From positions 1 through 28,945 of the IMG/VR virus record IMGVR_UViG_3300010412_000059: a stretch of DNA of 28,945 bases. One strand, written 5' to 3'. Below are positions 21,145-28,945 of the stretch, in pieces. Within the stretch, counting starts at the first letter, position 1. Every line of letters starts with the position of its first letter. The stretch comes from a virus. Position numbers and translations under genes: made by a program. The notes under the pieces are model-generated. The model made no database searches. It was not told where the DNA came from and saw nothing but the letters and a program-made list of their open reading frames with translations.

Positions 21145-21818
21145 ATGTCTAACCTTGGCATATCTGGTGTTACCATATCATGCACATTTTTTCCTAGATA
21201 GGGTAGGTACACTTCTGGAGTATGGGAGTCTATTGTAACAAGTCCTATATGTCCTACTACGGATTGCACTTTTCCTTTGTCAAGTTTTTCTAATCCGTAT
21301 AAAGGAAATGTTCTAGCATAAACAGGAATTTTTGTGCCATTAATATGTAATATATTATAATGTGCAGAAAATTCTCGTTTTGCCTCAACAGCGCTTAACC
21401 ATTCCTTGAATATTCTATCCCTATCCTCTGGATCAATGGCATTAACCCAATTAAACTTTAATAATTCAGAGGGCAACCTTCCAGTAAGTCTAGCAAATGT
21501 TCTATTAACCCAAGTGCACTCGCCATCGGCATTAGTTTCACATATTGCTAAGTTTAAATCTTGAAAAAATACTCTCTGTCTTTGATCGGATAGTAATTGT
21601 CGTATTTCAATTCTATCTACTGCATCTCTTATACTGCTTCCACCATTTGGTGTAAATTCTGCTACTACTAACTCTATATTGTCTACTAACTCGTAAAACT
21701 TACTTAATCCTTTATATAGGGGTTTAATTAATTTTTTCCACAATAAAGCTATAACAGTTATGCCCGCTATAATAGCAGAAAACAGAGCAGTACTTTGCTC
21801 AAAAATACTCATGTCCAT
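21141..21818 (-). CDS. Membrane-anchored PAS-domain protein in the head operon
   Basis: This 225-residue protein has one membrane segment at about residues 10-27 (TALFSAIIAGITVIALLW) with a positive flank (KKLIKP), then an amphipathic helix with coiled-coil character to about residue 82. A PAS-like domain follows from about 83: FFQDLNLAICETNADGECTWVNRTFARLTGR, then NWVNAIDPEDRDRIFKEW and KIPVYARTFPLYG. No kinase, HTH, GGDEF or other output domain follows; the C-terminus is about 30 unrecognised residues. The gene is packed between HNH nuclease and portal (ATGA overlap with portal), so it is expressed late with head genes. SD AAAGGAT. PAS domains sense ligands or redox, usually in signalling. 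Why a phage head operon makes one is unknown. Confidence 0.8.
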   Translation of the reverse strand: MDMSIFEQSTALFSAIIAGITVIALLWKKLIKPLYKGLSKFYELVDNIELVVAEFTPNGGSSIRDAVDRIEIRQLLSDQRQRVFFQDLNLAICETNADGECTWVNRTFARLTGRLPSELLKFNWVNAIDPEDRDRIFKEWLSAVEAKREFSAHYNILHINGTKIPVYARTFPLYGLEKLDKGKVQSVVGHIGLVTIDSHTPEVYLPYLGKNVHDMVTPDMPRLDI

Positions 21819-24536: not shown

Positions 24537-24757
24537 TATTCTTCCGGTAATGGAGGTAACGGCGGCGGGGCAGGAGGTGGATCAATTGGTTCAGGTTCAA
24601 CTGGGCCAGGAGGCAGAGGGGGCGGCTCGACTGGATCCGTGCAACGAATCTCATAATGGCTTAAATTTCCACGAGCGTTATTCTCCACCCATAGTTCGCA
24701 TTCTTCGTAAGTTCCGGAAAATTGAAATCTACCTTTTCGATAAACGGTACATGCCAT
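24536..24757 (-). CDS. 73-residue protein with proline-rich tail
   Basis: First gene of the late block, starting at 24757 with SD AAGGAGA. Residues 1-40 (MACTVYRKGRFQFSGTYEEC, then ELWVENNARGNLSHYEIRC) are paralogous to the following 55-residue gene. Residues 41-73 are almost only Pro, Glu, Leu and Asp (PPPLPP, PEPIDPP). Such tails usually bind or project from surfaces. The function is unknown, though the strong promoter and first position suggest high expression. Confidence 0.72.
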   Translation of the reverse strand: MACTVYRKGRFQFSGTYEECELWVENNARGNLSHYEIRCTDPVEPPPLPPGPVEPEPIDPPPAPPPLPPLPEE

Positions 24758-24793
24758 GGTTTTTTCTCCTTCTATGTGTACTCGTATACTATT

Positions 24794-24822
24794 ATAGTAT
24801 CAAAAATTTAGCTTCGTGTCAA
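24794..24822 (-). promoter_or_regulatory. Late promoter of the terminase operon
   Basis: On the minus strand TTGACA (24817-24822) is exact; TACTAT (24794-24799) at 17-base spacing is the best -10, with an overlapping TATAAT three bases further on. It shares the context GTnCTTGACACG with the promoter at 22254-22282, so both may be one regulated class. Transcription would start about 30 bases before ATG 24757. Confidence 0.75.
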
Positions 24823-25001
24823 GTACTTTTTTTGAGTTTGGTGTTAGGTAGTTATATAGTATGTTTTTGGAGCAATTTTTTGAATTTAAGCACCGTTTGC
24901 AATTTTCAAATTTTTTTAAGTGGTACACGTGTGGTTGGGTTAATATATAGGGGTTTAGAATGGGTCTAATAACCGCCCTCCCAGGCTGTTGCATTGCAAC
25001 A

Positions 25002-25016
25002 TGGCACGGTTTGTGC
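25002..25016 (+). promoter_or_regulatory. Sigma54-like -24/-12 element (site a)
   Basis: TGGCACG-GTTT-GTGC has GG and GC exactly ten bases apart, as sigma54 promoters require, with one deviation from the TTGC box. It is preceded by an inverted repeat GTTGCATTGCAAC. See the corresponding finding for the other sites. Confidence 0.4.
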
Positions 25017-25039
25017 ATATACGAAAAATTTTTTTCAAT

Positions 25040-25057
25040 ATAGGTATAACTACCTAT
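25040..25057 (+). promoter_or_regulatory. Operator-like inverted repeat
   Basis: ATAGGTA and TACCTAT form perfect 7-bp arms around TAAC. The 16-base stretch GTATAACTACCTATTG (25044-25059) is repeated exactly at 28557-28572. Probably a binding site for a regulator not encoded in this window. Confidence 0.6.
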
Positions 25058-25123
25058 TGCATCCATGCCCCGTTCTGTTATTCTATATTCAAGGGTTAGG
25101 GAATAGGAAAGAGGAAATAGGAA

Positions 25124-25237
25124 ATGACCAAGACACAGCAAGAACTCTATCAGAATCTGGTCGGACTTTGGCTGGACGATTTCATTGGCACAGATGCTTT
25201 CCTTGAGCTGGTTCACTACTGGATAATGGGAGACTAG
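25124..25237 (+). CDS. 37-residue early protein, unknown
   Basis: The ATG at 25124 has GAGGAA and AGGA upstream. The product MTKTQQELYQNLVGLWLDDF and IGTDAFLELVHYWIMGD is helical and amphipathic. It is followed two bases later by the next gene, so they are co-translated. Too short to classify; the SD and tight packing support that it is real. Confidence 0.6.
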   Translation: MTKTQQELYQNLVGLWLDDFIGTDAFLELVHYWIMGD

Positions 25238-25238
25238 A

Positions 25239-25427
25239 ATGTATATCACTCACAAGCAGAAACTGGAAGCCGCGCTGAAAGCAATTGATCTTTGGGCGCT
25301 GAATCAGAATCGAGACCCTTTCCGACCCTACAGCAAGGAACAGAAACTGGAAGCCTATCGGCTGCAAACCGCAGAATTGGAATTGGTCGAAGAAGGGCAC
25401 GACCCCTACAATCGCTCCCTGCGGTAA
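25239..25427 (+). CDS. 62-residue early protein, unknown
   Basis: The start at 25239 has GGGAG six bases upstream and is one base after the preceding stop. The product MYITHKQKLEAALKAIDLW, then NQNRDPFRPYSKEQ and KLEAYRLQTAELELVEE is helical, charged and probably soluble. Both ends contain a KLEA segment (QKLEAALK and QKLEAYRL), a possible short internal repeat. No family recognised. Confidence 0.65.
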   Translation: MYITHKQKLEAALKAIDLWALNQNRDPFRPYSKEQKLEAYRLQTAELELVEEGHDPYNRSLR

Positions 25428-25473
25428 CGATTGAAGGGTTATTTATAAGGTACTTATCTGTAGGTATTTCAAA

Positions 25474-25746
25474 ATGTTTAAATTCTATATGATTGCAATG
25501 ACTACACTGGCCGCCATTGTTGCAGGTTGGGTCGCAATTTTTGGTTTGGGTTATTTGCTGTTTTGGCTGCATATAACCTATGGCGAAATTGCCTCCGCTG
25601 TTATGGTTACAACTTTGGCAGCATGGGTATTTATCACCTACTCTCGCTGGCAGGATTGGCTTGCAGAACAAGAAAAAGAAGAAGAAGAATGGTGGGAGGG
25701 TTACGATGAGGAAAGCGACGATCCTCGCTTTGATAGAATTAATTAA
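25474..25746 (+). CDS. Small two-span membrane protein with acidic tail
   Basis: This 90-residue protein has two hydrophobic spans, about residues 8-31 (AMTTLAAIVAGWVAIFGLGY) and 38-56 (EIASAVMVTTLAAWVFITY), and a strongly acidic C-terminus (EKEEEEWW, DEESDDPRF). Preceded by AGGT at some distance; the 46-base gap from the previous gene shows no promoter. It ends before the terminator at 25765. Function unknown; small membrane proteins are common in phage early regions. Confidence 0.65.
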   Translation: MFKFYMIAMTTLAAIVAGWVAIFGLGYLLFWLHITYGEIASAVMVTTLAAWVFITYSRWQDWLAEQEKEEEEWWEGYDEESDDPRFDRIN

Positions 25747-25764
25747 GACCTAAACCCCTACACT

Positions 25765-25796
25765 AAAACCCTTGCCTTGTCAAGGGTTTTATTTTG
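25765..25796 (+). terminator. Intrinsic terminator of the first early cassette
   Basis: AAAACCCTTG (25765-25774) pairs perfectly with CAAGGGTTTT (25781-25790) around a 6-base loop, followed by ATTTTG. In reverse direction the stem ends TTTTAG, so it may stop minus-strand transcripts as well. It sits just before the first 65-bp palindrome. Confidence 0.85.
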
Positions 25797-25806
25797 TTTA
25801 TAGGTG

Positions 25807-25871
25807 TTGACAGGGTGCCGCTGGCGCGGCATCCTCCTCCGGAGGATGCCGCGGCGAAGCCGCACTGTCAA
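25807..25871. repeat. 65-bp multi-hairpin palindrome, copy 1
   Basis: Bounded by TTGACAG and CTGTCAA. The interior can fold as three hairpins: TGCCGC/GCGGCA with loop TGGC, TCCTCC/GGAGGA with loop TCC, and GCGGC/GCCGC with loop GAA; or as one 13-bp stem centred on TCC. It is nearly identical to copies at 27027 and 28411. The 36 bases that follow are also shared with copy 2 (CACTTTTATTTGCGAAAACT and on). Confidence 0.95.
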
Positions 25872-25891
25872 CACTTTTATTTGCGAAAACT

Positions 25892-25906
25892 TGGCATGAT
25901 TTTTGC
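25892..25906 (+). promoter_or_regulatory. Sigma54-like element (site b)
   Basis: TGGCATG-ATTT-TTGC carries GG and GC at ten-base spacing and an exact TTGCA box. It lies in the shared 36-base segment after palindrome copy 1 and points to the gene at 26065, about 150 bases upstream of it. Confidence 0.45.
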
Positions 25907-25952
25907 ATACATCCTAGGCCTGGTTTAGACTCGGTACAGAAAAACGGCGCCC

Positions 25953-25982
25953 ATTATACCATAGCGCGCTATGCCTTGTCAA
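25953..25982 (-). promoter_or_regulatory. Minus-strand consensus promoter (copy 1)
   Basis: On the minus strand TTGACA (25977-25982) and TATAAT (25953-25958) are 18 bases apart, both exact. The spacer contains the 14-bp palindrome CATAGCGCGCTATG. Transcription would run left across the sigma54-like motif and the 65-bp palindrome with no gene in that direction. Confidence 0.65.
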
Positions 25983-26004
25983 TACGTATATGTACGAATA
26001 TTTT
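25976..26004 (+). promoter_or_regulatory. Plus-strand promoter with operator in spacer (copy 1)
   Basis: TTGTCA (25976-25981) and TATTTT (25999-26004) are 17 bases apart; the spacer holds the operator-like ATACGTA-N4-TACGAAT (25982-25999). The -35 box overlaps that of the minus-strand promoter. It would transcribe the genes from 26065 on. Confidence 0.55.
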
Positions 26005-26064
26005 CACTGGCTGGTTCTGATACTATATCCCTACAGACAGAACCCATGCCCAAAGGAGGGCGAT

Positions 26065-26415
26065 ATGAAGAACGTGAACTACACTGAGGAACAGGTGCGC
26101 GAACTGGTCGCGGCCTATGTTGCTGCCGAAGATGACGCCTCGCGTCTGGCGGTTGTGATTGACTATGCGGAATTGTACGGCAAGACCGTTGCATCCATTC
26201 GGGCCAAACTGGTTCGGGAAGGTGTGTACGTTGCCAAGGAATATAAGACGAAGAAGGGCAACAAGCCGCAGAGCAAGGAAGATATGGTAACTCTGATTGC
26301 CGCTGCAATGAATGTTGCTTCCGATAGGTTGGTCGGTCTGGAAAAGGCGAACAAAAATACTTTGACCCTGATTCTGGATGCGCTGACTCCCTCGGAAAAG
26401 GAGGTTAGCGAATAA
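26065..26415 (+). CDS. Small HTH-like phage protein, possible regulator
   Basis: This 116-residue protein starts at ATG 26065 behind the strong SD AAAGGAGGG; an in-frame upstream Met at 25990 lacks an SD and overlaps the promoter. The sequence MKNVNYTEEQVRELVAAYVA is followed by a likely HTH (YAELYGKTVASIRAKLVREGVYV), then KTKKGNKPQSKEDMVTLIAAAMNV and LEKANKNTLTLILDAL. This 'SIRAKLxREGVYxAKEYKTKxG' pattern is frequent in small phage proteins of unknown role, probably DNA-binding. It is the first gene of its cassette and a candidate for a regulator of nearby operators; not proven. Confidence 0.68.
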   Translation: MKNVNYTEEQVRELVAAYVAAEDDASRLAVVIDYAELYGKTVASIRAKLVREGVYVAKEYKTKKGNKPQSKEDMVTLIAAAMNVASDRLVGLEKANKNTLTLILDALTPSEKEVSE

Positions 26416-26666
26416 TGACTAGGCTGGAGAAAATCGCGACAATAGCCGGAATCGCTCTGTTGAACGTCTATACTTTGCCCGCGATTGTTTCGATTTTCTC
26501 CGGCAATCCTTCGACAATGCCTGCCGCCTCTCACCTGATGTTAGCAGGTGGCATTATGGGAACAACTATTAGATTAATTGGTTTGCGGGAATGGCTGCTG
26601 ACTACCAACAACATTCTCGGCGTGGTAATACACCTTGTCCTAGCATCGTTTGCTCTGGCATATTAG
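26415..26666 (+). CDS. Small membrane protein, three hydrophobic spans
   Basis: This 83-residue protein starts at 26415 sharing one base with the previous stop (TAATG), with GGAGG about 15 bases upstream. Spans are about residues 7-28 (IATIAGIALLNVYTLPAIV), 38-58 (ASHLMLAGGIMGTTIRLIGL) and 64-83 (NILGVVIHLVLASFALAY). Short loops, no cysteine and no lysis-specific feature. Function unknown. Confidence 0.65.
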   Translation: MTRLEKIATIAGIALLNVYTLPAIVSIFSGNPSTMPAASHLMLAGGIMGTTIRLIGLREWLLTTNNILGVVIHLVLASFALAY

Positions 26667-26701
26667 TCACACCATTCCCGCGTTTTTTTGAGGTACTAAA
26701 A

Positions 26702-26962
26702 ATGGCATATGTTAGCTTGGCGAACACGGAATTTGTGCGTTATGATTTGCAGAATTTGCGCGCGTTTCAACTCTACCAAATTGCGGTTGCATTGCAGGAG
26801 AAAATTGACCGCATCCCTGCCGACTCGGATCTTGCTTGTTCCCTTGTTACTCTGCTAGAGGACATTGAATTTTCTTTGGATGAAATTGCAAAAGCCGAGA
26901 AGCGCGAGCAACGGATTTGGGGCAGCATAATCACCACTAGCATACAGGAGGACAACGGGTAA
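26702..26962 (+). CDS. 86-residue helical protein, unknown
   Basis: ATG 26702 with GAGG eight bases upstream is preferred over an upstream in-frame Met at 26591 that overlaps the membrane protein gene. The product (MAYVSLANTEFVRYDLQN, LRAFQLYQIAVALQEKIDRI, LLEDIEFSLDEIAKAEKREQ) is amphipathic helical. It ends immediately before the terminator at 26971. No family recognised. Confidence 0.65.
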   Translation: MAYVSLANTEFVRYDLQNLRAFQLYQIAVALQEKIDRIPADSDLACSLVTLLEDIEFSLDEIAKAEKREQRIWGSIITTSIQEDNG

Positions 26963-26970
26963 CTAGCCAA

Positions 26971-27015
26971 TTTGGCACGCTTCTTGCCTAGCAAAAAGCG
27001 TGCCAAATTTTTTTT
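26971..27015 (+). terminator. Strong intrinsic terminator of the second cassette
   Basis: TTTGGCACGCTT (26971-26982) pairs without mismatch with AAGCGTGCCAAA (26996-27007), followed by eight T residues. The left arm and loop also match the sigma54 pattern TGGCACG-CTTC-TTGC (26973-26987), which is probably coincidental here. Confidence 0.93.
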
Positions 27016-27026
27016 GCAAACCGCGC

Positions 27027-27091
27027 TTGACAGGATGCCGCTGGCGCGGCATCCTCCTCCGGAGGATGCCGCGGCGAAGCCGCACTGTCAA
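27027..27091. repeat. 65-bp multi-hairpin palindrome, copy 2
   Basis: Identical to copy 1 except for A instead of G at the ninth base. It follows the terminator by 12 bases (GCAAACCGCGC, also present before copy 3). The shared block with copy 1 extends to about 27127, so the direct repeat is about 100 bp. Confidence 0.95.
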
Positions 27092-27111
27092 CACTTTTAT
27101 TTGCGAAAACT

Positions 27112-27126
27112 TGGCACGATTTTTGC
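27112..27126 (+). promoter_or_regulatory. Sigma54-like element (site d)
   Basis: TGGCACG-ATTT-TTGC is an exact match to the classical sigma54 -24/-12 pattern with GG and GC ten bases apart. It also forms an imperfect hairpin (TTGGCA/TGCCAA) on either strand, so the alternative reading is a small RNA hairpin. It lies about 95 bases upstream of ATG 27222. Confidence 0.5.
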
Positions 27127-27141
27127 CAATAGGGCGCGCCA

Positions 27142-27171
27142 ATTTTACCACACCGGCCCAGGCCTTGTCAA
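27142..27171 (-). promoter_or_regulatory. Minus-strand promoter (copy 2)
   Basis: On the minus strand TTGACA (27166-27171) and TAAAAT (27142-27147) are 18 bases apart, equivalent to the copy at 25953-25982. It would transcribe left through the palindrome with no gene until the reverse strand of the preceding cassette. Confidence 0.6.
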
Positions 27172-27193
27172 TACGTATATATACGAATATGCA
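27165..27193 (+). promoter_or_regulatory. Plus-strand promoter with operator in spacer (copy 2)
   Basis: TTGTCA (27165-27170) and TATGCA (27188-27193) are 17 bases apart with the operator-like ATACGTA-TATA-TACGAAT in the spacer (27171-27188), whose core CGTATATATACG is a perfect palindrome. The -10 box is weak. It would drive the HAD-exonuclease cassette. Confidence 0.5.
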
Positions 27194-27221
27194 AAAAGAA
27201 TCATCCTGCTAAACTAACCAT

Positions 27222-27686
27222 ATGGAAAAAATACATATATACGACATGGACGGGGTGCTGGTAGATACTAGCCACCGTTACCGCAACCTGCCAAACGGTT
27301 CAATTGATTTAGATTATTGGCTGACCAACAATACGCCAGAAAAGGTAGCGCAAGATACCTTGCTGCCGCTGGCAAAGCAATATAAAGCCGACCTGCTAAA
27401 CCCTGCAATTTATGTTGTAATTTGTACAGCAAGGGCAGCACTAGCGCACGATTATGATTTTATTCGAAACCGTTTAGGTTGGCCGAATAAAATTATTTGC
27501 CGCCCGGTTGGCAACATGGAACCTGACGCGGTTTTAAAACGTCGCGGCTTGTGTCGCTTGCTTAACTTGAAACAATTTCAGAACATTGTCCGCGTGTTCT
27601 GGGATGATAACAAGAAAAATCTTGACGCGGTAAAAGATTTAGGGTTAAAATTGGTTCACGTTAAAAGCAATATTTGCGAGGAATAA
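27222..27686 (+). CDS. HAD-superfamily phosphatase (polynucleotide phosphatase-like)
   Basis: This 154-residue protein has the four HAD motifs: I DMDGVLVDT (Asp 8, Asp 10), II VICTARA (Thr 69), III Lys 106 in AVLKRRGL, IV VFWDDNKKN (Asp 128, 129). The small size and motif I are like the 3'-phosphatase part of phage polynucleotide kinases (phage Pnkp/PseT-type), without the kinase part; nucleotidase or DNA-end phosphatase activity is possible. No SD is visible; the leader TAAACTAAC is shared with the gene at 28604. It shares one base with the exonuclease gene (TAATG), suggesting joint work on DNA ends. Confidence 0.82.
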   Translation: MEKIHIYDMDGVLVDTSHRYRNLPNGSIDLDYWLTNNTPEKVAQDTLLPLAKQYKADLLNPAIYVVICTARAALAHDYDFIRNRLGWPNKIICRPVGNMEPDAVLKRRGLCRLLNLKQFQNIVRVFWDDNKKNLDAVKDLGLKLVHVKSNICEE

Positions 27687-28354
27687 TGAAAGCGAAAAAT
27701 TTTATTACTGTCGACACTGAAACCGTTGGGCTGCCGCCTTGCAATCTGGTTTATGATCTTGGCTATACGATTGCAACTCGCAAGACGGTTCTGGTTCGCC
27801 GGTCTTTTCTTGTCAAAGAAATTATTACTGATGGCGATGCTATGATGGGCGCTTTCTATGCAAAAAAGATTTTCTCGCATTATATCCCTGCGCTAGATAC
27901 CAATGAAATTTCTTTGGTATCGTTTGCCGATATTGCGAACACCATGCGCAAGGATGTGGAAGAATACAACGTATCGGTTTTGTGCGCGTACAATTTAAAC
28001 TTTGACGTTTCCGCTATTCGTGCAACTAGCGCGAAACTTTCCCACGGCAAGATTTTTTCTCACCCGCTAGACTTACTTGATCTTTGGACGTTTGCATCGG
28101 GCGCGTTGAATACTCGCCTTTACCATGATCTTGCGAGGGAGCAGGGGTGGATTTCTCCCGCTGGTAATGTTCGGACTACGGCAGAAAAAGCTTATGCGTA
28201 TCTTTTTGGTGCGCGTGATTTTGTGGAAAGCCATACCGCGTTACATGATGCCGAAATCGAAACCGCTATTCTGCAGAAACTATTGGCGCGGAAAAAGCGT
28301 ATTCCCTACGGCAAACCCCATTATGCCCCGTGGAAACTAGCGCAGACCACCTAA
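27686..28354 (+). CDS. DnaQ-like 3'-5' exonuclease (DEDDh)
   Basis: This 222-residue protein carries the DEDDh motifs: Exo I VDTETVGL (Asp 10, Glu 12), Exo II AYNLNFDVSAI (Asp 107), Exo III HTALHDAEIE (His 183, Asp 188). Start ATG 27686 has GAGG upstream and overlaps the previous stop; an upstream Met at 27674 was rejected. No polymerase or other domain is fused. The C-terminal tail (KKRIPYGKPHYAPWK) is basic and may bind nucleic acid. Likely roles: trimming of DNA or RNA 3' ends, nucleotide recycling or proofreading. Confidence 0.88.
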   Translation: MKAKNFITVDTETVGLPPCNLVYDLGYTIATRKTVLVRRSFLVKEIITDGDAMMGAFYAKKIFSHYIPALDTNEISLVSFADIANTMRKDVEEYNVSVLCAYNLNFDVSAIRATSAKLSHGKIFSHPLDLLDLWTFASGALNTRLYHDLAREQGWISPAGNVRTTAEKAYAYLFGARDFVESHTALHDAEIETAILQKLLARKKRIPYGKPHYAPWKLAQTT

Positions 28355-28358
28355 CATA

Positions 28359-28399
28359 TTCGGCCCTAGGTGTCAACCCCTAGGGCCGAAATTTTTTTT
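28359..28399 (+). terminator. Strong intrinsic terminator of the third cassette
   Basis: TTCGGCCCTAGG (28359-28370) pairs perfectly with CCTAGGGCCGAA (28379-28390) around an 8-base loop; after one A there are eight T residues. The bases from the T-tract on (GCAAACCGCGC and palindrome) match those after the terminator at 26971, although the stems differ. Confidence 0.93.
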
Positions 28400-28410
28400 G
28401 CAAACCGCGC

Positions 28411-28475
28411 TTGACAGGGTGCCGCTGGCGCGGCATCCTCCTCCGGAGGATGCCGCGGCGAAGCCGCACTGTCAA
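28411..28475. repeat. 65-bp multi-hairpin palindrome, copy 3
   Basis: Identical to copy 1 over all 65 bases. It is preceded by the same 11 bases as copy 2 but followed by a different sequence (AT-rich, then a consensus promoter), so only the palindrome and its left flank are shared here. Confidence 0.95.
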
Positions 28476-28497
28476 CAAAATTATTTAAAAAATTAGC

Positions 28498-28527
28498 TTG
28501 ACAGCCCAGGCTCTACTATGCTATAAT
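28498..28527 (+). promoter_or_regulatory. Consensus sigma70 promoter of the SprT cassette
   Basis: TTGACA (28498-28503) and TATAAT (28522-28527) are both exact, 18 bases apart, with an AT-rich upstream stretch. It is the strongest plus-strand promoter in the window and starts a leader of about 70 bases before ATG 28604. Confidence 0.9.
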
Positions 28528-28552
28528 ATAAAATTAAATCAAGAAACGCCTT

Positions 28553-28570
28553 ATACGTATAACTACCTAT
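28553..28570 (+). promoter_or_regulatory. Operator-like site downstream of the SprT promoter
   Basis: ATACGTA-TAAC-TACCTAT fits the same 7-4-7 pattern as the sites at 25040, 25982 and 27171. It lies about 20 bases into the expected transcript, a position where a repressor would block elongation. Confidence 0.55.
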
Positions 28571-28603
28571 TGACTTTAACTAGGATTCGGTTAAACTAAC
28601 ATT

Positions 28604-28915
28604 ATGAAATTAGAAACCATCAAGCAGCTTTACCGGAATATCAATACCTACATTTTTGACGGGCAACTAGAGGAACCCGTTATTAGATTTTTCCGGGCGC
28701 GGAATAAGCATGGCGAATACCGACAGGCTCGCGGCAAAGCAATTATATACCTTGATCGAGGAATCAAACTTCATGAGGCCGCCGATATTCTTTATCATGA
28801 GATGGTTCACCAATACGAAAGCGAAATTTTAGAATTTGATACTTTGGATCATGGCGACACTTTCCTTGCTCATGCTTGGGTGGCCGACGCAATGGGATGG
28901 AAGAAATTTATCTAG
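28604..28915 (+). CDS. SprT-like zinc metalloprotease
   Basis: This 103-residue protein has the SprT core: zinc-binding HEMVH (His 65, 69; Glu 66), third ligand probably in DHGDTF (His 83), and an N-terminal helix-strand (LYRNINTYIFDGQLEEPVIRFF). The C-terminal zinc ribbon of cellular SprT is absent. Relatives (Spartan/SprT) degrade DNA-protein crosslinks or process other proteins; the phage role is unknown. No SD is visible; the leader holds the shared TAAACTAAC 9-mer three bases before ATG. Confidence 0.86.
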   Translation: MKLETIKQLYRNINTYIFDGQLEEPVIRFFRARNKHGEYRQARGKAIIYLDRGIKLHEAADILYHEMVHQYESEILEFDTLDHGDTFLAHAWVADAMGWKKFI

Positions 28916-28924
28916 GGGTTTACA

Positions 28925-28945
28925 ATGGCTGAATTTGAGAACACA
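28925..28945 (+). CDS. Start of a gene cut by window edge
   Basis: ATG at 28925, 10 bases after the SprT-like stop, with AGGGG nine bases upstream. Only seven codons (MAEFENT) are visible, so nothing can be said about function. Confidence 0.5.

Follow-up and report, generated by a model that had tools for sequence, protein, structure and literature searches.

Facing sigma70-type promoter skeletons around a GC-rich palindrome at gene-cassette borders of a T5-like phage

The window analyzed here (IMG/VR record IMGVR_UViG_3300010412_000059, positions 1 to 28,945) is a 28,945-base fragment of an uncultured T5-like phage, a virus of bacteria, and toward its right end three copies of a 65-bp inverted repeat (the 65-mer) stand at the borders of short cassettes that carry, in order, genes for an A2-like DNA-binding protein, a Dmp-like phosphatase with an exonuclease-like protein, and a SprT-like protein (Table 1). 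An earlier reading of the bases alone (the sequence-only reading) had located the three elements, no more than one base apart and each directly after an intrinsic terminator; the coordinates and the single change were verified, and the tail of a terminator lies 10 to 15 bp before the start of every copy. Identity between copies 1 and 3 soon stops beyond the TTGACA and TGTCAA ends, and the 65-mer is therefore a unit in itself. Its flanks are partly shared, as had been described: copies 2 and 3 have 22 nt in common on the left, and copies 1 and 2 have 25 exact nt in common on the right, followed by a weaker stretch. Simple tandem duplication of the region, which had been named as a possible refutation, is ruled out, since flanks and cassettes differ between copies. 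By eye, the ends do not match the GTTRRRY/RYYYAAC of an integron attC site. The 28.9-kb record contains no further copy of the 65-mer.

The architecture of the element follows the scheme 6+17+6+7+6+17+6, or TTGACA-N17-CATCCT-N7-AGGATG-N17-TGTCAA. Read from its bases, the 65-mer is two face-to-face sigma70-type promoter skeletons, whose half-sites point inward into the module and in which a GC-rich palindrome stands in place of the -10 boxes. All six half-sites in the window have TTGACA at a distance of 17 bp, inside the 16 to 18 bp that define the spacing of a sigma70 -35 element; 17 bases is the usual optimum between the -35 and -10 elements. Two distant relatives (G001 and G002) each carry several modules in the same region, with other sequence and the same skeleton, and across these two genomes and the window TTGACN-N17-CAYCCT occurs at 20 sites, compared with a single site for spacings of 8 to 16 and 18 to 26 taken together and a random expectation of 0.01 to 0.04 per genome. 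Seventeen of the 20 spacer strings are distinct, so it is the length that is kept and not the sequence. It is thus the facing arrangement of TTGACA, 17 bp, and CAYCCT that is conserved, and not the cloverleaf that the sequence-only reading had taken as the conserved feature.

Table 1. Positions of the 65-bp elements, transcription signals, and genes in the window
Feature	Position	Strand	Details
65-bp element, copy 1	25807..25871		Left half: TTGACA 25807-25812, spacer 17, CATCCT 25830-25835, center 7; right half: AGGATG 25843-25848, spacer 17, TGTCAA 25866-25871
65-bp element, copy 2	27027..27091		Single change, G to A at position 9
65-bp element, copy 3	28411..28475		All 65 bases as in copy 1
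Intrinsic terminator before copy 1	25764..25791	+	11-pair stem, 4 G-C pairs, T-rich tail
Terminator before copy 2	26969..27016	+	14-bp stem, then T8; not reported by the terminator scan
Intrinsic terminator before copy 3	28359..28398	+	12-pair stem, then ATTTTTTTT
Sigma70-like promoter beside copy 1	25953..25982	-	12/12, 18-bp spacer, directed back at copy 1
Sigma70-like promoter beside copy 2	27142..27171	-	11/12, 18-bp spacer, directed back at copy 2
Sigma70-like promoter after copy 3	28498..28527	+	12/12, 18-bp spacer, toward next cassette
Sigma54-like site right of copy 1	25892..25907	+	TGGCATGATTTTTGCA, 1 mismatch to consensus
Sigma54-like site right of copy 2	27112..27127	+	TGGCACGATTTTTGCC
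T5 A2-like DNA-binding protein	26065..26415	+	Cassette between copies 1 and 2
Dmp-like HAD phosphatase	27222..27686	+	Cassette between copies 2 and 3
Exonuclease-like protein	27686..28354	+	Same cassette as Dmp-like; phrog_20187, phrog_192, alignment A3
SprT-like protein	28604..28915	+	First gene past copy 3

Within the -10 position itself, 20 of 20 sites have A-11 and T-7, the two bases of a -10 box that sigma70 captures when the DNA melts. CATCCT and CACCCT agree with TATAAT only at these two positions and, in the window, at -10, and the box is not AT rich. Upstream of the skeleton sites the A content resembles that of the canonical promoters of the same phages (means of 0.53 and 0.49; p 0.47) and exceeds that at other TTGACA sites (0.34; p 0.0007), and several of the relatives' copies have an upstream TATACGTATTGACA or TATACCTATTGAC in common with canonical promoters. 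Sorted by what follows them, the TTGACA boxes of the three pre-early regions comprise 18 of the CAYCCT kind, 17 with a canonical -10, and 13 with neither.

The terminase of the phage is 44 to 48% identical to those of eight known T5-like phages, its portal is about 41% identical to the best of them, and its late region has no match in INPHARED by megablast. Relatives in IMG/VR were found through alignment of the terminase (the portal, used as a single-protein query, retrieved none there), and records very near the window were possibly excluded from the searched collections. G001 is the contig of L012, and G002 is the contig of L092 and the same phage as L016 and as G003/L145; their terminases are 67 to 69% identical to that of the window. 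In both, the modules lie within the few kilobases past the terminase end, where they follow terminators and separate short cassettes whose content differs from that in the window, which bears out the proposal of a recurring boundary module. Absence from the equivalent boundaries of relatives had been offered as grounds for rejecting that proposal; the skeleton is found there, and the exact 65-mer is found in the window phage only.

Beyond these genomes the arrangement was sought at several levels. The two-sided skeleton has no match among 84,980 bacterial and archaeal species, each represented by one genome, the 119-nt unit has none among the 50,697 phage records of INPHARED, and the exact 24-base left arm of the 65-mer does not occur elsewhere in IMG/VR. 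One-sided TTGACA-N17-CAYCCT with a palindrome is limited in IMG/VR to the records of G001 and G002 (including G003/L145) plus scattered loci that resemble chance, and a scan of other T5-like records for palindromes 17 bp after TTGACA found nothing comparable. Within the clade the specific CAYCCT test was used, since a long palindrome fits more than one offset and a general palindrome-offset scan therefore does not favor 17 bp. G004 (L022), with a terminase 66% identical to that of the window, has GC palindromes at its boundaries without the skeleton, and its pre-early region also contains a dispersed GTTCC/GGAAC-type palindromic motif near many gene ends (L022 3300-8000). The skeleton is likewise absent from L154, a T5-like contig with a terminase 55% identical, in which sigma54-like sites adjoin an A2-like gene.

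Both as RNA and as DNA, the 65-mer folds far better than shuffled sequences, as a check proposed by the sequence-only reading now establishes. The RNA fold of the 65-mer is about -43 to -44 kcal/mol (z -5.6 to -6.2, equaled by 0 of 200 shuffles), and the DNA folds of both strands have z of about -6.7. That reading had offered two folds of the interior, and the minimum-energy structure is the one with a 13-bp stem, a single long interrupted hairpin that the TTGACA/TGTCAA ends close; a cloverleaf of three hairpins can be drawn by eye and is not the minimum. A T run directly after the 65-mer is absent on either strand, and the element does not qualify as an intrinsic terminator. In a MAFFT alignment of 14 hand-picked palindromes from the three genomes, paired cells make up 95.5%, a share that is high by construction because of the hand-picking, and five stem pairs have changed on both sides. 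The covariation score of 0.227 exceeds those of all 500 shuffles and of all slid versions; the A-T and T-A pairs at -11 and -7 are invariant, and other pairs covary. This pattern fits selection acting on the palindrome, at the level of either DNA or RNA; template switching can likewise maintain perfect palindromes, and a dimer operator would be expected to change in its two halves at once.

The promoters around the copies only partly match the earlier description, which had placed all three before promoters. This holds for copy 3, the only one with a strong forward promoter; at copies 1 and 2 the best promoters are on the minus strand and directed back, and weaker forward matches are present near gene starts. 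Sigma54-like sites follow copies 1 and 2 on the right at a distance of about 20 bp, and the arms of the terminator before copy 2 are themselves two such sites facing each other. The motif TGGCAYG-N4-TTGC occurs 25 times in the clade at a gap of 4 and 0 times at the other gaps from 0 to 8, and is also present in three Vibrio T5-like records; facing pairs of sigma54-like sites are also found in phages without detected T5-like genes. Such sites were noted in the window (25002, 25892, 26973/27005, and 27112), in relatives (L012 8165-8395, L016 8695-8745, and L022 5221/5253), and elsewhere (L152, L155-L159, L161-L166, and L168-L170). By their sequence, they are putative sigma54 sites, exact or near-exact to the consensus and often in facing pairs, in pre-early noncoding DNA of T5-like phages and in other phages.

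Fur-box-like palindromes (near AATGANAATNATTNTCATT) occur at a frequency above random, both within the modules of the relatives and clustered in the terminal repeats of T5 and phiR2-01 (noted at L012 4039-7035, L016 2916-7922, L005 505-650, L004 505-716, and L129 8405-8475). The window has two DnaA-box matches, at 21734 and 24465, both outside the modules, and its pre-early region has none. An inverted repeat, TAGGTATAACTACCTA, and partial copies of it (window positions 24845, 25041-25056, and 28558-28569) lie near the divergent and early promoters, and similar ATAGGTA...TATACSTA motifs stand upstream of many promoters in the relatives; a repeat of this type is a likely operator. An Rfam scan of the window, L012, L016, and L022 yielded no family that reaches its gathering score (two subthreshold matches in L012 were set aside).

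The sequence-only reading was right that the elements border cassettes with different genes, which it called early; they look pre-early. The A2-like product belongs to phrog_1725 in common with annotated A2 proteins, which it matches in profile comparison (96.7%, E 4.6e-10), and has no convincing relative by sequence in the PDB. The Dmp-like product is 43% identical over 97 aa to Dmp of Vibrio phage ABurr (the PHROGs label for its family is polynucleotide kinase), and the SprT-like call rests on a PF10263 match of 23.9 bits, slightly under the curated cutoff of 25.6. Since A1, A2, and Dmp are pre-early genes in T5 (PMC13250531), the presence of A2-like and Dmp-like genes makes the window cassettes probably pre-early rather than early, and the region is perhaps the first to be injected. 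The G+C content rises from ~32 to 38% in the late genes (1-24757; most ~32%) to 44 to 49% in the pre-early region (24757-28945).

Genes adjoin differently across the three genomes. The Dmp-like and exonuclease genes are neighbors in all three, and the A2-like gene, which modules 1 and 2 enclose as a separate cassette in the window, follows the exonuclease gene in G001 and G002 with no module between. The SprT-like gene lies past the exonuclease gene and across module 3 in the window; in G001 it is found two modules off on the side of the Dmp-like gene, where G002 carries a set that includes an SPFH gene. These arrangements fit an exchange of cassettes between modules, as judged from a small number of genomes. 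Both relatives also have a stretch of ~370 nt without a convincing gene between two modules, on the minus strand (L012 4243-4615 and L016 5068-5445); the two sequences look different, and their folding has no clear advantage over shuffles (z -0.98 and -1.82). The G002 phage further contains an array of 16 predicted tRNA genes (L124 1786-12952).

The retention of one plan in two distant relatives despite different sequence speaks for a genuine control or boundary element that has not been described before, and we infer its function from the sequence. Our tentative preference, held with somewhat less than even confidence, is that the 65-mer is a boundary element acting at the DNA level by docking RNA polymerase, which would be held poised or serve as a block; other readings have difficulty with the 17-bp spacing, the kept -11 and -7 bases, and the upstream tract. 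Contacts at the -35 element and upstream of it would recruit the polymerase, and the GC-rich -10 would resist melting, leaving it waiting as a poised or blocking complex. The cassette would thereby be isolated from read-through and from the promoters of its neighbor until a phage factor or changed conditions released or activated the complex, and as a side effect the near-identical copies would provide homology for cassette exchange. Several points weigh against polymerase docking: CAYCCT is far from TATAAT, so that the polymerase might fail to engage altogether; promoters that face each other would be a strange design for expression; the left-side A-rich tract is weak at window copies 2 and 3; only three genomes (the window, G001, and G002) carry the skeleton; and template switching (palindrome repair) could yield the compensatory changes even in the absence of selection. 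Much of the same pattern, moreover, would follow from a dedicated phage regulator. The palindrome would then be an operator, bound over the -10 position by a putative phage DNA-binding protein (the A2-like protein is a candidate) that represses or activates, an account that is doubtful by itself and nonetheless ranks close behind polymerase docking. Within one phage the palindromes resemble one another, between phages they differ, and their two arms change in concert, as expected of a dimer site that follows its protein, and a regulator of one specificity would explain why each phage has one palindrome sequence. All of the compared phages encode A2-like proteins (28 to 44% identical to that of the window, with paralogues in the relatives), and in cluster A mycobacteriophages the stoperators, which act on transcription from dispersed, phage-specific sites, likewise vary with their repressor (PMC6550527). 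However, G004 has A2-like proteins and lacks this palindrome, and an operator alone would not need its 17-bp distance to TTGACA.

That same distance is difficult for the two remaining explanations, which account for less of the evidence. If the backward promoters, present as sigma70-like matches at modules in each of the four genomes (window 25982 and 27171; L012 4085; L016 4881 and 7857; L022 5912), drove short RNAs through the palindrome toward the previous terminator, these could be putative small regulatory RNAs, processing sites, or stabilizers; the predicted RNA of L012 folds as three hairpins with a T run after the last, and the better-than-shuffled fold of the 65-mer also suits such a role. 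RNA hairpins do not account for a strict 17-base distance to TTGACA, because several spacers form none, and copy 3 is without a strong backward promoter, the predicted RNAs of the window lack a clear terminal T run, and no Rfam family was matched, so that we consider an RNA role improbable. To about the same degree we doubt that the 65-mer is a linker or spreading hairpin without any regulatory role, propagated by gene conversion or recombination and kept for cassette exchange. Near-identical copies within a phage, mosaic flanks, and the differing cassette content of the relatives are all in keeping with it, but neutral spread would not hold 17 bp over 17 different spacers, nor A-11 and T-7. 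Target duplications were not seen at the flanks of the copies, and the lack of a two-sided match among 84,980 species, with one genome searched for each, disfavors the earlier suggestion of a host-derived mobile hairpin.

Among known systems, the nearest are boundary and control sites of other phages. The PeSL regulatory cassettes of T4-type phages, reportedly proposed by Arbiol et al. in 2010 to mediate modular shuffling, are repeated intergenic units that combine a stem-loop or terminator with transcription signals where small genes of the early region meet, and the window has such a unit. The phage here is T5-like rather than T4-type, however, its unit is two-sided with a GC-rich palindrome replacing the -10 of the skeleton, and where PeSL has an early promoter toward the downstream gene, copy 3 has a 12/12 forward promoter, copies 1 and 2 have backward ones, and the forward half-sites have a GC-rich -10. 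The injection stop signal (ISS) region in the pre-early DNA of T5 contains repeats, inverted repeats, and palindromes (PMC13250531). It resembles the modules in having palindromes in the pre-early DNA of a T5-type phage (a probable placement for the window, with A2-like and Dmp-like genes between its modules) and in that Fur-box-like palindromes occur both in the relatives' modules and in the T5 terminal repeat; it differs in being thought of as one region, whereas the elements here recur at several gene boundaries, and in being noted for DnaA boxes, which have no match in the window modules. Cluster A stoperators are also phage specific and dispersed, as the palindrome sequence is here, but are asymmetric 13-bp repressor sites of temperate phages, in contrast to a 65-bp inverted repeat in a T5-like phage for which no repressor has been identified. 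From ordinary sigma70 promoters, with which it shares TTGACA, the 17-bp spacing, the A-rich upstream tract, A-11, and T-7, the 65-mer departs in that its other -10 bases are mostly G or C within a stable palindrome and that two copies face each other. Because it has some and not all of the defining features of PeSL, ISS, and stoperators, we treat the 65-mer as a variant form of boundary module and assign it to none of the three.

A broader and rather speculative possibility, joined to a role in the injection stop and less probable than any of the readings above, is that T5-type phages line their first-entering DNA with sites that dock abundant host DNA-binding proteins, bound but not transcribing. 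The set would comprise the facing sigma70 skeletons of the 65-mer, the facing sigma54 sites, and the Fur-like palindromes, together with the DnaA boxes in T5; the bound proteins might anchor, pause, or ratchet the incoming DNA, and the pre-early cassettes would be held separate until A1 and A2 act.

Boundary modules that join transcription signals with cassette exchange are known in T4-type phages, and the 65-mer would be a separate, T5-type form of them. It follows a readable design rule, in which the promoter spacing is exact and the melting box is swapped for a palindrome; if polymerase docks there without starting, the 65-mer would be a natural poised or blocking promoter. The pause in DNA injection by T5-type phages was called poorly understood in 2026 (PMC13250531), and because the 65-mer lies among A2-like and Dmp-like genes, it gives concrete test sequences both for the separation of pre-early genes and for that pause.

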